From an uncultured Pseudomonadota bacterium (lineage in GTDB: Bacteria; Pseudomonadota; Alphaproteobacteria; Rs-D84): 35,032 bases of DNA. Below, in pieces: positions 18,857-34,980 of this stretch (the first letter of the stretch is position 1; every line of letters begins with the position of its first letter). The stretch covers positions 1-35,032 of the forward strand of contig CADBBQ010000010.1 of NCBI GenBank assembly GCA_902793005.1, given 5' to 3'. Both the position numbers and the translations under genes were made by a program. The notes under the pieces were generated by a model, which saw only the letters and a list, made by a program, of their open reading frames with translations, had not been told where the DNA came from and made no database searches.

Positions 18857-18885
18857 TAGACATTTTTTTCACAATATTTTATAAT
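18857..18885 (+). promoter_or_regulatory. Promoter of the surface-lipoprotein/Slam operon
   Basis: TAGACA is followed after 17 bp by a perfect TATAAT. Predicted transcription starts near 18892, giving a leader of roughly 250 nt before the first lipoprotein. Confidence 0.65.
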
Positions 18886-18897
18886 TGTATTGAATCC

Positions 18898-19108
18898 AAG
18901 AAATTGGGTTTGGGCTGTGGTGGCCCGTCTTGTTCGGTGCGAAAGCGTCGTTAATTTTGATATTCCGGTGTTTTTGCACCGTTATTAATCCTGACTGCTG
19001 TGAAAAAACAATGGTCGGGGGGCTGACGGTTATACAACAGGGGCAACCCGAAAACCGCAGAATCAATAACAAGATGGTTACCAACGCCCCGACCACCAAT
19101 TTCTTGAC
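18898..19108 (+). ncRNA. Long structured RNA leader, unknown family
   Basis: The ends pair perfectly: CAAGAAATTGG at the left with CCAATTTCTTG at the right (11 bp), closing the whole element. Inside are GGGC/GCCC; GGTGC-GAAA-GCGTC; a hairpin CGGTG/CACCG extended by TTAAT/ATTAA; and a large arm GGTCGGGG/CCCCGACC. That arm holds CGGTT/AACCG and a GGG-GCAA-CCC stem with a GNRA-type loop. No terminator follows, and the AAAGGGGA ribosome binding site of the lipoprotein lies ~20 nt downstream, so a cis-acting leader is more likely than a free sRNA. It does not match riboswitches I know. Pairings were found by eye. Confidence 0.6.
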
Positions 19109-19139
19109 CGTTTGATATTTTTATAAAGGGGAATTTTAA

Positions 19140-20450
19140 ATGAAAAAATGTTTTATTCTGACATCCGTATTGGCATTGGCGGCGTGCAGCGGCGGTTCCG
19201 GTGGCGGCGGTGCGCCAGGCGTTTCCGGCGGGCAATTGTCTGGCGCGGAAAATTTTATACGATCAGGGCAAACCACTATTGGAAATGTGGAAATTAATAA
19301 CGATGTCACAAGTATGGCAAGCGCGATTGTTGTCGCAAAGGATGGTTCCAGTTCCGCGATACGATCTGCGACCAAGAGTTTTAACGGTAAAGAATATGAC
19401 ATCTATGATTTAAGTGATGTTAAATTTAATGCCACAGACGAAGGTTTTGGGTTGCCAATGCAATTTATCGTTGGTGACGACAAAGTAATAAGACAATTGG
19501 CGATACAGGATAATGAATCTATTGTGCAAGGCAATAAGATATACATTGAATATGATGACGAAAATTATATATTAAGCGGAACAAAATTATTATCAAAATT
19601 GAACGAGCCTGGTTATGAAATCCTGGACAGTGGCTCTGGTCCCAATATTTATTACAATGGAAATCTGTATGTGGGCGACGATCTGGAAATTGCGAATAAT
19701 AACATATACCGGGTACTGAACACCGTGCCAGACGGCATGCTTGTAGAAAATGACAAGATTTATACCGAGTATACTGGCGATCATCGTATTATCAAAAACA
19801 ACGAAGTGTACGAATTATATGATTTGGATTCTGGGTACACATTTAAATCAGAAGATGGGGATATAAACTTAACCTATGCGTCACATGGCAAGGATATGAA
19901 ATTAAAATATTCTGATTTTGGATTCTATCAATTTTCTGCAAATAACGATGTTGACAGGCCGGTTCCGTTTATTGGTGGGTATGACGATGTCAAAAAAATT
20001 GAATCTGATGAATTGCCCACATCAGAAACCACATTTACCGGTAACGCAATCGCATCGGTGATATCGATATTGGGTGGCGAAAATAGTGGCACCGTTTACG
20101 ATCCCCAGAATAATGGCGGTTTTATTAATGGCTCTGCCGAACTAAAATTCACAAAGGACAGTGAAAATTTAACAGCCCGTTTTGAAGATTGGTATGATGT
20201 CTCGTATAATAATGGAAATTTGTCTTTTGACGGGACAAACAAAACCATTCCTGACGCATACAAATTATTTTCAAATGCATCTGACAGTGAAACCAATTCC
20301 AAAATTCAGTACTATGGTGATAACGGAACTCCATCCGAAGCGGTTGGTTTAATTCAATATCGCCAGTGCGCCAATGGCACGTGTGACAATGATTATGATA
20401 CACATCAGGAAATTCGTATGAATTTAAGTTTTGGTGCCAAGGCACAATAA
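19140..20450 (+). CDS. Surface lipoprotein candidate with TbpB-like barrel
   Basis: The lipoprotein signal peptide has lipobox LAAC (Cys16), followed by a Gly/Ser-rich flexible tether typical of surface-exposed lipoproteins. The 436-residue protein has a variable, beta-rich middle and a C-terminal domain, about residues 255-436, of the transferrin-binding-protein-B barrel type: YSDFGFYQF, GGYDD, TTFTGNAIASVIS, GSAELKFT, LTARFEDWYDV, and a last strand IRMNLSFGAKA. The neighbouring Slam-like gene is the expected export partner. TbpB-type barrels often bind host metalloproteins, but there is no ligand evidence here. The gene shares its signal-peptide sequence and C-terminal motifs with the next gene. 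Confidence 0.82.
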   Translation: MKKCFILTSVLALAACSGGSGGGGAPGVSGGQLSGAENFIRSGQTTIGNVEINNDVTSMASAIVVAKDGSSSAIRSATKSFNGKEYDIYDLSDVKFNATDEGFGLPMQFIVGDDKVIRQLAIQDNESIVQGNKIYIEYDDENYILSGTKLLSKLNEPGYEILDSGSGPNIYYNGNLYVGDDLEIANNNIYRVLNTVPDGMLVENDKIYTEYTGDHRIIKNNEVYELYDLDSGYTFKSEDGDINLTYASHGKDMKLKYSDFGFYQFSANNDVDRPVPFIGGYDDVKKIESDELPTSETTFTGNAIASVISILGGENSGTVYDPQNNGGFINGSAELKFTKDSENLTARFEDWYDVSYNNGNLSFDGTNKTIPDAYKLFSNASDSETNSKIQYYGDNGTPSEAVGLIQYRQCANGTCDNDYDTHQEIRMNLSFGAKAQ

Positions 20451-20471: not shown

Positions 20472-22193
20472 ATGAAAAAAATTGCAATTTTAACATCTGT
20501 GTTGGCTTTAGCGGCGTGCAGCGGTGGTTCCGGCGGTGGTTTTGCGCCAAATAATATTGTCAGGGCCAGCGAAACAGATATACGTAATTCAAATCTGGAA
20601 GTGACTGCAATGGTTGATAATGAAACACAACGAACCGTGTATTTGCAAAATGCATTGGGTGATGATTATGATACATACGCACAAGAATTGGATAACACAT
20701 CACAACAAAATAACACACGACAATCAACCATACGTTCCGCTACTAATGGTTTTACCCCAAGCCCATTAACTTGCCGTGGCAAAGGGACATGTAATCAGTT
20801 GATTTTGGATGAAATGTACCGGGTGTTAGTGACAGAAATAGACAACTGGGAAAATGTATCTGAAAACGATATTATTCGGGCATTACGCGTTGCAGGGTAT
20901 AAACACGAGATAGCAACCCATAACGATGATATAAGACAATGGTTTCGTGACAATAAAGAAAGCATAAGACAACAGGCCGAAAATGTGGCAAACGCAATAG
21001 GCGATTTGCATCAATTTGATTTGAGCCAGGCTGAATTTTATTCTGATGAAGATATTTTGAAGATAAATTTAGACAATACTGGAAAAATAGAATCAATAAA
21101 TATAGATTCCAATACTGATTCTGCTGTAAACAGACTTTCAATTAATGCTGTTCGTGATAACAATAGTGTATTTAATACAGACGAAACAATATATTATTAC
21201 ACTTTATTGCATGCCGGTAATGACGCGTATAACTCGTTAATTCAGCAATCTGATGACGGATACACGATTGAAGTTGTGTCAAAAACACCGCTAACATTAA
21301 ATCAATTAAAGGCAAAATTATTGGCACGTCTGGACGAGATAAAAGATAATGATGATATGTTCGCGGTATTTGGGTTTAATCCAGACAACCATACAGAGGC
21401 TGAAACACAAAATTTTAGAAATGATTTTGTGAGCCTGACGACGGACAAGATAAATGGACTGTCATCATTAGACGATCAACATATCAGAGTAGAAAACGAT
21501 GATATGATCGGAGCAATAGATTTAGAAACTTTTGGTAACCAAGTTGGTTTGGCGTATTCTGATTTTGGTTTTATGAAATTCTTTGATCCTGATAATCCAC
21601 AAAATGCCGAAAGAGCGGTATTATACGGCGGTTATAATGATTATAAACGTGATATAACCAACGCAAATCAAAGAATGGTGTTTTCAGGAAAAGCTGCCGG
21701 TTTGGTTTCGTATAGTGACGGCGTATTAAATGACACGAGAGGTCAACAAGGTCCAATTACTCAGGGAACCCAGGTAATATCTGGGGATGCAGAATTTGTG
21801 TTTGATCCATCTGGTATATCTGGTCCAACAGAAACATTAACTGCAAACTTTAGTAATTGGTATGATGTTGAAATTACAAAAACTGGTAATACAGCAAGCG
21901 CGGTATTCAGCGATGCAACCAATAAAATAAATGATAATAATTTCAAGTTCTTTGATATGAATGGGACAACAGGACAATTAGAATATAAAGACACTAATAC
22001 CGTAAACAATATGTTGGTAGATACTATTTTGGATTCACAAACTTCTTTTGTGACAGGTCATCACAGTGGGGCTATGGATTTGAATTATTATGGTTATACA
22101 GATTCTGGTATCAGCGAGGTTAGTGGCCAGGTTAATTATGGTGAGAGTTTTCCATATTATTCAAATGGTATAGATGGTTCAACTGATCGTTGA
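20472..22193 (+). CDS. Second surface lipoprotein candidate, interrupted by in-frame TGA
   Basis: This is a paralogue of the gene before it: nearly the same signal peptide (ILTSVLALAACSGGSGGG), a longer and different helical/beta middle (573 residues), and the same C-terminal barrel motifs (YSDFGFMKFF, GGYNDYK, MVFSGKAAGLVS, GDAEFVF, LTANFSNWYDV). The reading frame hits TGA after IDGSTDR. It then stays open for 26 more codons, to a TGA at 22272-22274, encoding RSINVTFGFGGLNTFEPQ and more, which matches the last strand of the paralogue. The stop is therefore a nonsense mutation, a read-through site (TGA followed by C) or a sequence error. AAAGGA precedes the start. Confidence 0.8.
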   Translation: MKKIAILTSVLALAACSGGSGGGFAPNNIVRASETDIRNSNLEVTAMVDNETQRTVYLQNALGDDYDTYAQELDNTSQQNNTRQSTIRSATNGFTPSPLTCRGKGTCNQLILDEMYRVLVTEIDNWENVSENDIIRALRVAGYKHEIATHNDDIRQWFRDNKESIRQQAENVANAIGDLHQFDLSQAEFYSDEDILKINLDNTGKIESINIDSNTDSAVNRLSINAVRDNNSVFNTDETIYYYTLLHAGNDAYNSLIQQSDDGYTIEVVSKTPLTLNQLKAKLLARLDEIKDNDDMFAVFGFNPDNHTEAETQNFRNDFVSLTTDKINGLSSLDDQHIRVENDDMIGAIDLETFGNQVGLAYSDFGFMKFFDPDNPQNAERAVLYGGYNDYKRDITNANQRMVFSGKAAGLVSYSDGVLNDTRGQQGPITQGTQVISGDAEFVFDPSGISGPTETLTANFSNWYDVEITKTGNTASAVFSDATNKINDNNFKFFDMNGTTGQLEYKDTNTVNNMLVDTILDSQTSFVTGHHSGAMDLNYYGYTDSGISEVSGQVNYGESFPYYSNGIDGSTDR

Positions 22194-22317: not shown

Positions 22318-23676
22318 TTGAAAAAACATCTGTTGCTTTTAGTGTTGATATTTCTGCCGGCGATTGCGTCGGCAGAGGTGTCTGTGGCAAAAACAAATAA
22401 TAAAAAAACCGAAATCACCCTGTCTGCGCTGGATGCGGTTAAAATGGCGGGCGCAATGGTTGAACGGGGTGATTTTGATAATGCCGAAGTAATTTTAACA
22501 AAACTGCCCAAATTATCGCGTGTGGAATTGGAAATTGAACGGTGGTTTTTGTTGGGGCAAATTTCTGCGCGGCGTGGGGATTATGATACTGCGATTAAAA
22601 TTTTTCGTAAAATTTTGGATGACCAACCAGATTTGGCGCGCATTCGTTTTGAATTGGCAATTTGTTATATGAAAACTGGGCATTGGTATCGGGCGGATTA
22701 TCATTTGCGTTTGGCTATGGCCGGGGACAATTTGCCGGAAAACGTGCGCAAAATGATGTCTTATTATCGATATATCGTGCGTCAGAATAAAAATTGGAAT
22801 GTGTGGTTTAATTTTGGTGCGGCACCTGATAATAATGTCAATCAGGCAACCGGAGGGCAAGAGTGCGTGAACACTATATTCGGGCCAATGTGTCGTGAAT
22901 TGTTGGCGCCGGAATCTGCAGTGGGATTTAATTTTGTCCTGGGTGGAAATTACGAATTCAAATTTGGCGAACATTGGCGTTGGAAGACGGACGCCAATAT
23001 TTACACCAATACTTACAACAAACATAAATTTGACGATTTGTATTTATCTGCGTCAACTGGGCCACGTTATGTGTGGAATAATGGCGATATATGGTTGGCG
23101 TCTGTGGCGGCGCGACGTTGGTATGGATGGGAAAAATACAGTTGGTCGCTGGGCGGAAAGTTGGATACAAATTATGATTTTACCAGAAAATTATCAGGCG
23201 GATTGTCTTTGCGTGTGTTAAACAATAAATATGACGAATACGGTCCGTGGATGGATGGACAGACATATTCTGCAAATGGCCGGGTGTCATATTCACTGGA
23301 CGCGACAAAGTATATAGTATTGCGCGGTGGTATTGACCGGGATACGGCACGCGACGATATTTATGCAAACTGGCGCCCTAATGTTGGCGTTGGGTTTGGT
23401 GTGGCCCTGCCCTATGGATTTGATATTTATGCCGAACCATCGTTTTATTGGACCAATTATGATGGCGAACGGTGGGTTGTTGATGAAGGGATTTTTACAA
23501 AAAAGAAGGCCAAAGATTTTAATCAACGGTATTCTGTGTCTTTGTCTAATCACAAGTTTGATATTTGGGGATTTGTTCCGACGCTAACTGTATCTTATAC
23601 CAAACGCAATTCAAATATTTGGCAACGCGAATACGATAAATGGACAACAGAATTTACTTTTCAACAACGTTTTTAA
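22318..23676 (+). CDS. Slam-type surface lipoprotein assembly modifier (outer-membrane translocator)
   Basis: Slam proteins move lipoproteins across the outer membrane to the cell surface. The 452-residue protein begins with a signal peptide (MKKHLLLLVLIFLPAIASA). TPR-like helical repeats follow, about residues 30-150 (AMVERGDFDNAEVILTKLP; GQISARRGDYDTAIKIFRKI; RIRFELAICYMKTGHWYRAD). The Slam junction motif NFGAAPDNNVNQAT comes next, then a beta barrel rich in alternating Trp/Tyr strands, ending in the typical terminal Phe (FTFQQRF). The start is TTG, as no suitable ATG precedes the signal peptide; AGAGAA lies upstream. It is the third gene of the lipoprotein operon, so its likely cargo is encoded directly upstream. 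Confidence 0.85.
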   Translation: MKKHLLLLVLIFLPAIASAEVSVAKTNNKKTEITLSALDAVKMAGAMVERGDFDNAEVILTKLPKLSRVELEIERWFLLGQISARRGDYDTAIKIFRKILDDQPDLARIRFELAICYMKTGHWYRADYHLRLAMAGDNLPENVRKMMSYYRYIVRQNKNWNVWFNFGAAPDNNVNQATGGQECVNTIFGPMCRELLAPESAVGFNFVLGGNYEFKFGEHWRWKTDANIYTNTYNKHKFDDLYLSASTGPRYVWNNGDIWLASVAARRWYGWEKYSWSLGGKLDTNYDFTRKLSGGLSLRVLNNKYDEYGPWMDGQTYSANGRVSYSLDATKYIVLRGGIDRDTARDDIYANWRPNVGVGFGVALPYGFDIYAEPSFYWTNYDGERWVVDEGIFTKKKAKDFNQRYSVSLSNHKFDIWGFVPTLTVSYTKRNSNIWQREYDKWTTEFTFQQRF

Positions 23677-34779: not shown

Positions 34780-34786
34780 ATAATTG

Positions 34787-34945
34787 CATTGGTGTGTTGC
34801 CAGTGTGGGACAAGAAAACCCTAAATAAGCTAAACTTCCATCCCTGAGTGGTTGGAGGGTTGCGAATATATTGAATAAGCGACGCTACTTTTTTAGCTTA
34901 GTAGTTTTTCTTGCCTCCAACCGCGCTTTTTTACGCGGTATTTTT
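34787..34945 (+). ncRNA. Structured RNA, copy A (pseudoknot, own promoter and terminator)
   Basis: The layout is the same as copy B. Hairpin CATTGG/CCAGTG (34787-34805) is followed by GGG-ACAAGAAAA-CCC. Segment TAAGCTAAA (34826-34834) pairs with TTTAGCTTA (34892-34900), which sits inside a CTAC/GTAG hairpin. GGTTGGAGG (34850-34858) pairs with CCTCCAACC (34914-34922) and crosses the first helix. GTTGC/GCGAC lies between them. The terminator is ACCGCG/CGCGGT plus TATTTTTAT. Relative to copy B there are single compensating changes (G-U for A-U in two stems) and a completely different but still complementary long-range helix. This is strong evidence for a conserved RNA structure. Confidence 0.75.
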
Positions 34946-34948
34946 ATA

Positions 34949-34980
34949 TCAAAGTTCAAAGTGCAAAGTTCAAAGTTCAG
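34949..34980 (+). repeat. Heptanucleotide repeat, right end
   Basis: Units CAAAGTT, CAAAGTG, CAAAGTT and CAAAGTT end in CAG, 31 of 32 bases identical to the repeat within rimM. It directly follows the terminator of structured RNA copy A. Confidence 0.85.

Follow-up and report, generated by a model that had tools for sequence, protein, structure and literature searches.

A structured leader RNA of a surface lipoprotein/Slam operon is one copy of a multi-copy family resembling C4 and sRNA-Xcc1

The leader of the lipoprotein/Slam operon

What is the strongly folding stretch in front of a surface-lipoprotein/Slam operon of an uncultured alphaproteobacterium, and is its function tied to the lipoproteins? 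The operon lies in a window of 35,032 nucleotides (contig CADBBQ010000010.1, forward strand; "window" denotes this whole stretch). For this window, an initial annotation had described a leader at 18898-19108 and proposed a riboswitch or another cis-regulator of surface-lipoprotein export. The element is present, but it is slightly longer, reaching from 18892 to approximately 19122. It is a highly structured leader of approximately 225 nt, which ends just 5' of the operon. Fold prediction, suggested as a check, yielded a minimum free energy of −97.1 kcal/mol for the region 18880-19140, far below that of shuffled sequences (−68.4 ± 4.9 kcal/mol; z = −5.8; 0 of 200 as low). The features of the leader and the operon are as follows:

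18857-18885, plus strand: predicted sigma-70-type promoter TAGACA-17-TATAAT, predicted transcription start at approximately 18892
18892-18911, plus strand: hairpin P1 (GAATCC..GGGTTT), 98% of the alignment cells paired, double changes in five of six pairs
18912-18926, plus strand: hairpin P2, its loop TGGT (approximately 18918-18921) being the a1-like segment
18927-18934, plus strand: linker GTCTTGTT, b1-like, complementary to 19068-19075, compensatory changes in all seven pseudoknot columns
18935-18981, plus strand: hairpin H3 (CGGTGC..GCACCG), with covariation
18989-19020, plus strand: hairpin H4 (TCCTGAC/GTCGGGG), 98.4% paired, rivalling the C4-like outer helix for GTCGGGG
19013-19094, plus strand: C4/sRNA-Xcc1-like domain with the outer helix GGTCGGGG/CCCCGACC, H5, H6 and then the a segment, with covariation
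19061-19079, plus strand: hairpin H6 (AATCA..TGGTT), its loop (19068-19075) being the b antisense segment
19080-19083, plus strand: a antisense segment ACCA, pairing with the P2 loop (98% paired, double changes in three of four pairs)
19088-19122, plus strand: terminator position of the family, decayed in this copy (no hairpin, 0.0 kcal/mol)
19140-20450, plus strand: first surface-lipoprotein gene, adjoining the leader
20472-22193, plus strand: second lipoprotein gene
22318-23676, plus strand: Slam (surface lipoprotein assembly modifier; PF04575 SlipAM, 2e-33)

Most structural details of the initial annotation could be located. The 11-bp helix CAAGAAATTGG/CCAATTTCTTG lies at 18897-18907/19096-19106, the 8-bp arm GGTCGGGG/CCCCGACC at 19013-19020/19087-19094, and the GNRA-type loop GGG-GCAA-CCC at 19040-19049. 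H5, within the C4/sRNA-Xcc1-like domain, combines an AUACAA internal loop with the GCAA tetraloop. The proposed alternative pairing GTTATTAATCCTG/CAGAATCAATAAC can form, with two mismatches rather than the three counted before, but it is weak across homologues (own −3.3 vs. swapped −3.0 kcal/mol) and was discarded as a feature of the family. The promoter with its 17-bp spacer matches the consensus at 11 of 12 positions. The same spacing is kept upstream of 93 homologous copies, in which the −35 and −10 elements stand at a fixed distance from P1, and the flank upstream of the promoter is not conserved. The second lipoprotein gene indeed has no such leader, because only 21 nt separate it from the first. 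A Pfam search with the protein encoded by the first gene gave no match. An Rfam search of the window and 20 homologous loci at the gathering score returned only tRNAs. Since the sole tRNA-Gly detected is located elsewhere, a tRNA or tmRNA identity of the leader was rejected.

A multi-copy family in front of unrelated genes

Of 59 related genomes searched at the DNA level, 28 contain similar stretches, frequently several each. The aligned copies share a −10 box before GAATCC, the chain of hairpins, a GC-rich hairpin followed by a T run, a ribosome site and a start codon. A covariance model of this approximately 225-nt leader family (R1) matched 93 of 95 searched genomes, covering all 13 sampled genera of the window's bacterial family, and 11 of 142 genomes sampled from the whole class. 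At E ≤ 1e-6, six genomes of approximately 1 Mb contain 54, 53, 47, 39, 38 and 31 copies, and the window's own genome contains 11. The search for homologues proposed at the outset thus found related leaders in abundance, and the window leader is neither unique nor lipoprotein-specific, being one copy of a multi-copy family. According to the database records, carriers of the strict core motif are mostly metagenome-assembled genomes of uncultured Alphaproteobacteria from the guts of ruminants, horses and insects. Strict searches of annotated phages and viral contigs gave no match to the leader sequence or the strict motif. Weak R1 matches in the window's own genome (below approximately 20 bits; loci L082, L084, L086 and window positions 34786-34950) resemble isolated terminators and were left out of the counts; the match within the window (14.6 bits, E 0.004) probably is one.

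The start codon of the following gene is at most 45 nt away from the match in 87 of the 90 copies with an open reading frame. These genes encode lipoproteins, outer membrane proteins, polymorphic-membrane-protein-like repeats, ankyrin proteins, a sulfatase, a protease and many proteins of unknown function, as well as EcoRI-type, C5 and N6/N4 DNA methyltransferases, a GIY-YIG protein, glycosyltransferases and RgpF. A simple rule predicts a signal peptide or a membrane-like start for 59 of 90 (a raw fraction), and no common pathway connects them. Of the function first proposed, the cis-regulatory leader is retained. Specificity for lipoprotein export lacks support, as copies of the leader also stand before genes for methyltransferases, a GIY-YIG protein, glycosyltransferases, ankyrin proteins, a sulfatase and outer membrane proteins.

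Covariation, competing helices and the terminator

In an alignment of 99 distinct copies, 96.5% of the cells assigned to P1, P2, H3, the outer helix, H5, H6 and two pseudoknots are paired, compared to 34-49% when the pairing is slid along the alignment. Compensatory changes occur in 44 of 61 pairs, and 0 of 500 shuffles performed as well. Absence of covariation in homologous leaders had been named as the outcome that would speak against the element; the covariation is very strong, so this objection does not arise. It is strongest in the two pseudoknots, one between the P2 loop and the segment that follows H6, the other between the H6 loop and the linker from P2 to H3; the columns of both were absent from the model that built the alignment. 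Because covariation, a fixed promoter, an adjacent gene start and a terminator recur across the family, the sequence data strongly support a cis-regulatory structured RNA that is co-transcribed with the lipoprotein operon.

A second fold, formed by H4 and the terminator, is also conserved by covariation in the 99 copies. GTCGGGG can pair upstream (H4) or downstream (C4-like outer helix), and GACC can be part of the outer helix or of the terminator. The three helices therefore compete for two strands, since H4 and the terminator overlap the outer helix on either side; the overlap comprises only 4-7 bp. An intrinsic terminator (hairpin and T run) is located at the end of the element in 91 of 93 copies, compared to 9% of shuffled sequences. 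Two copies deviate, among them the window copy, in which the region 19088-19125 forms no hairpin. Mutually exclusive antiterminator and terminator helices thus covary in a family of which the window copy has no terminator.

This also changes the meaning of the 11-bp helix, which had been described as closing the whole leader. The helix is present, but it is not a hallmark of the family, since its 3' strand is the 5' arm of the terminator in 91 of 93 copies. In the window copy, it joins a strand of the P1 hairpin to the decayed terminator arm. Judged by its sequence, this copy has lost its terminator and would form the long closing helix in its place. Across the family, P1 and the terminator are more complementary within a copy than between copies (own −15.3 vs. 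swapped −12.4 kcal/mol; 0 of 2,000 permutations), which suggests an alternative, antiterminating pairing, although the signal may stem in part from the common ancestry of the copies. Because of the decayed terminator, the lipoprotein/Slam operon is probably either read through constitutively or controlled by leader folding alone.

Copy-specific pairing codes

The two long-range pairings, a1 with a and b1 with b, link the 5' hairpin loop and the linker to the 3' domain. For the 93 copies, the P2 loop and linker (a1b1) were paired as a separate strand with the segment from H6 to a (ba). The duplexes of a1b1 with the copy's own ba reached −22.5 kcal/mol, compared to −10.3 kcal/mol for swapped partners, and 0 of 2,000 permutations were as good. 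The own partner was the best of all 93 in 80 copies. Within one genome, it was the best in each of 20 sampled copies, with a median margin of 7.4 kcal/mol. A preference for the own code was also found in other alphaproteobacterial families (0 of 5,000 permutations). Codes from one genome do not differ from each other more than expected by chance, as 728 of 1,000 random draws were equally spread. A second copy of the code at the ribosome site, comparable to a2/b2 of phage P1, is weak in the window's family (21 of 2,000 permutations; own partner best in 3 of 93).

The very mixed accessory genes downstream could indicate a non-coding cassette spread by recombination, a portable promoter and leader for exchanged genes that folds mainly for mRNA stability. 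The occurrence of sRNA-Xcc1 in mobile integron cassettes (PMC12444791) would be compatible with this. We regard it as very improbable: private codes held by compensatory changes need selection for pairing and not copying alone, and the flank upstream of the promoter shows no conservation.

Relationship to C4 and sRNA-Xcc1

C4-type RNAs are regulators of phage immunity and have been studied mostly as single loci, namely in P1, P7, P4 and Gifsy-1. In Xanthomonas and Xylella, sRNA-Xcc1 has been investigated as an sRNA that is linked to virulence or found in vesicles. A relaxed Rfam search identified sRNA-Xcc1 (RF02221) at 19013-19102 with 39 bits (E 1.8e-5), and a genome-wide search with RF02221 returned the same site (E 8.5e-6). 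The score is below the gathering cut-off of 53 bits, so that formal membership is not given, and the domain of the window shows the sRNA-Xcc1 consensus fold including the AUACAA/GNRA hairpin.

The C4 model (RF01695) matched neither the window nor any of 40 genomes of the genus and the order, a search in which the controls remained silent as well and phage P1 did match. Formal C4 membership was rejected for want of a model match, an antirepressor and more than a weak target at the ribosome site, and the name is not used here to denote membership because RF01695 has no match in the genus. The layout of C4 is nevertheless present: an outer helix, a tetraloop hairpin, a hairpin with a b' loop and a free a' segment, each helix covarying in the 99 copies, with the a1 and b1 targets located upstream within the same transcript. 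No phage antirepressor is controlled; lipoproteins and Slam follow in the window and mixed genes elsewhere. The RNase P-type RCC 3' tail is inconsistent among the copies.

In the immI region of phage P1 (GenBank AF234172), the order is a1, b1, C4, a2, b2, icd. Rfam assigns c4-a1b1 (RF03163) and C4 (RF01695), both of clan CL00128, to this leader, and the isrK model matches its a1b1 region. The order of promoter, a1 loop, b1, C4 and gene in P1 and P7 is that of the window's family, and the order of the C4 helices is that of sRNA-Xcc1 and of the window domain. In contrast to P1 and P7, the window's family has an added intrinsic terminator in 91 of 93 copies and dozens of copies per genome; its cargo is not an antirepressor, a2/b2 are weak, and there is no Rfam match in the genus.

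RF02221 scored above its cut-off in 35 of 299 sampled proteobacterial genomes, and the 190 nt upstream were read at 30 of these sites. A hairpin loop 5' of the match corresponds to the segment after the last hairpin, and a linker corresponds to the loop of the last hairpin. Many loci additionally have a GCGG..GCGGTATTTTTGTGCC-type hairpin upstream. Judged by position and sequence, H3 is presumably the counterpart of the GCGG..GCGGTATTTTTGTG hairpin in the leaders of phage P1 and sRNA-Xcc1. Both words often recur downstream around the ribosome site of the next gene. The upstream and the ribosome-site matches are both copy-specific (0 of 5,000 permutations each; ribosome site own −20.6 vs. swapped −16.4 kcal/mol). 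The 15-mer TGCGGTATTTTTGTG is common to three RF02221 loci and the P1 leader. A reverse search of the RF02221 loci with the model of the window's family was marginal (best E 0.007). From reading the sequences, we take the genes that follow RF02221 loci to encode BRO, BRO-N or antirepressor proteins, Rha-like and SymE-like proteins, and small proteins of unknown function.

The RF02221 loci share with the window's family the AUACAA/GNRA hairpin and the upstream a1/b1 hairpin; unlike it, they usually carry the a/b segments a second time, at the ribosome site, and no U-run terminator follows the domain. The Rfam entry, which is in no clan, covers only the 3' half, and at the loci examined (L087-L116), RF02221 is apparently just this part of an approximately 180-nt leader with C4-like a1/b1 and ribosome-site targets. 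These data suggest that sRNA-Xcc1 constitutes the antisense half of a leader of the immunity type, for which the gene directly following that leader would be the first target. In the cited portions of PMC2996969, PMC12444791 and PMC12189769, sRNA-Xcc1 is treated as a trans-acting sRNA, and no link to C4 is drawn there. The window leader probably works like C4 and sRNA-Xcc1 and is most likely a diverged relative.

Further systems resemble the family in part. The P4 CI RNA with seqA/seqC and IsrK/STnc1160 of Gifsy-1 are leader-internal antisense RNAs acting on termination or translation (PMC4825925), but they are single-copy prophage loci of different sequence, and Gifsy-1 exerts control via read-through and translational coupling, whereas the window's family has an intrinsic terminator beside each of many genes. 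The C4-like Group 1 sRNAs of Acinetobacter baumannii resemble the family in that these C4 derivatives are present on the chromosome in multiple copies and vary in their target loop (PMC5320573); the 21 sRNA genes are treated as trans-acting and not described as leaders with matched codes (PMC5320573). Like sRNA-Xcc1 and C4, the leaders might be sources of trans-acting sRNAs that end at the terminator, with read-through into the gene being incidental and other mRNAs or phages being the targets. Consistent with this, sRNA-Xcc1 was mapped as an 88-nt RNA (PMC2996969), the A. baumannii C4-like sRNAs are processed and abundant (PMC5320573), and 91 of 93 copies have a terminator. We consider such a function quite unlikely, because each antisense segment pairs best with its own leader and because 87 of 90 copies have a start codon no more than 45 nt away.

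Proposed mode of action

We think it reasonably probable that the leader is a C4-type antisense module, resembling that of P1 immunity, which was recruited as a general gene switch, probably acting by transcription attenuation. Following the promoter, the module would present the a1 loop, the b1 linker, the C4-like domain with its b and a antisense segments, and the gene. In the stop state, H4 and the terminator would be formed, and most transcripts would end before the gene. In the read-through state, the GACC/terminator arm would be taken up by the outer helix of the C4-like domain or by the strand of the P1 hairpin, allowing the polymerase to continue. The C4-like domain, either in cis or processed and in trans, might pair with its own a1/b1 code and thereby bias the choice between both states. 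A private a/b code would thus allow addressable feedback for each gene separately. Attenuation as the mode of action is inferred from the sequences. We do not favour the P1-type step, in which the antisense segments mask the ribosome site, because the code copies at this site are weak (21 of 2,000 permutations); the control point in the window's family seems to have shifted from the ribosome site to the terminator.

The initial proposal of a riboswitch is reflected in a further explanation, according to which the family is a multi-copy class of metabolite or ion riboswitches, the pseudoknots serve as tertiary structure and the H5 AUACAA/GNRA loop is the binding site. A transcriptional leader in many copies with mutually exclusive H4, outer helix and terminator would fit, as would the conserved unpaired AUACAA..GAA loop. 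We nevertheless consider a riboswitch unlikely, given that the downstream genes have no common pathway, that variation is greatest in a matched code specific to each copy, unlike a ligand pocket, and that other alphaproteobacterial families have a different H5 loop. The layout, moreover, fits the leaders of P1 immI and RF02221, whose genes are antirepressors, Rha or SymE. The antisense-type switch is favoured over the riboswitch because each copy has its own pairing code and because the layout agrees with that of C4 and sRNA-Xcc1.

Tentatively, with confidence just short of even, we propose in addition that a C4-type phage-immunity RNA has become a genome-wide control layer in gut Alphaproteobacteria with reduced genomes, where 31-54 self-addressed, privately coded attenuators would govern surface, restriction-modification and glycosylation genes in each of six 1-Mb genomes, and, across Proteobacteria, sRNA-Xcc1 would represent the C4-like half of units of this kind. 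If true, this would be among the densest RNA-control systems known in a bacterium, with dozens of individually coded copies per tiny genome, joined to an intrinsic terminator and located in front of surface and defence genes, and the family would provide a natural library for studying how antisense codes keep their specificity.

Variants and further copies

Five copies in the window's own genome (L075, L076, L078, L079 and L081) form a longer subfamily of approximately 320-350 nt. They are highly similar to one another, with codes of the kind described above, an enlarged H3 region and an H5 hairpin without the AUACAA loop. Two copies of the longer subfamily (L078 and L083) precede genes for large secreted proteins that share one repeat-like C-end domain. 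In other alphaproteobacterial families (L122, L125, L132 and similar loci), the code pairing is retained, but the H5 loop reads approximately RTRTGTYCA in place of AUACAA. By sequence comparison, the H5 loop therefore appears in at least two conserved versions, AUACAA and RTRTGTYCA.

Contig G048:C44 (L026), from a different family of the order, carries two modules of the same orientation, approximately 700 bases apart (702-892 and 1416-1605). Their codes differ and their 5' part is shorter; a third match in this genome is located on contig 35. A genome named Endomicrobiia bacterium MS502-22 includes a contig with a full copy in front of a lipoprotein-like gene (L215:4500-5100, minus strand), which reflects either a transfer between phyla or the misbinning of an alphaproteobacterial contig.
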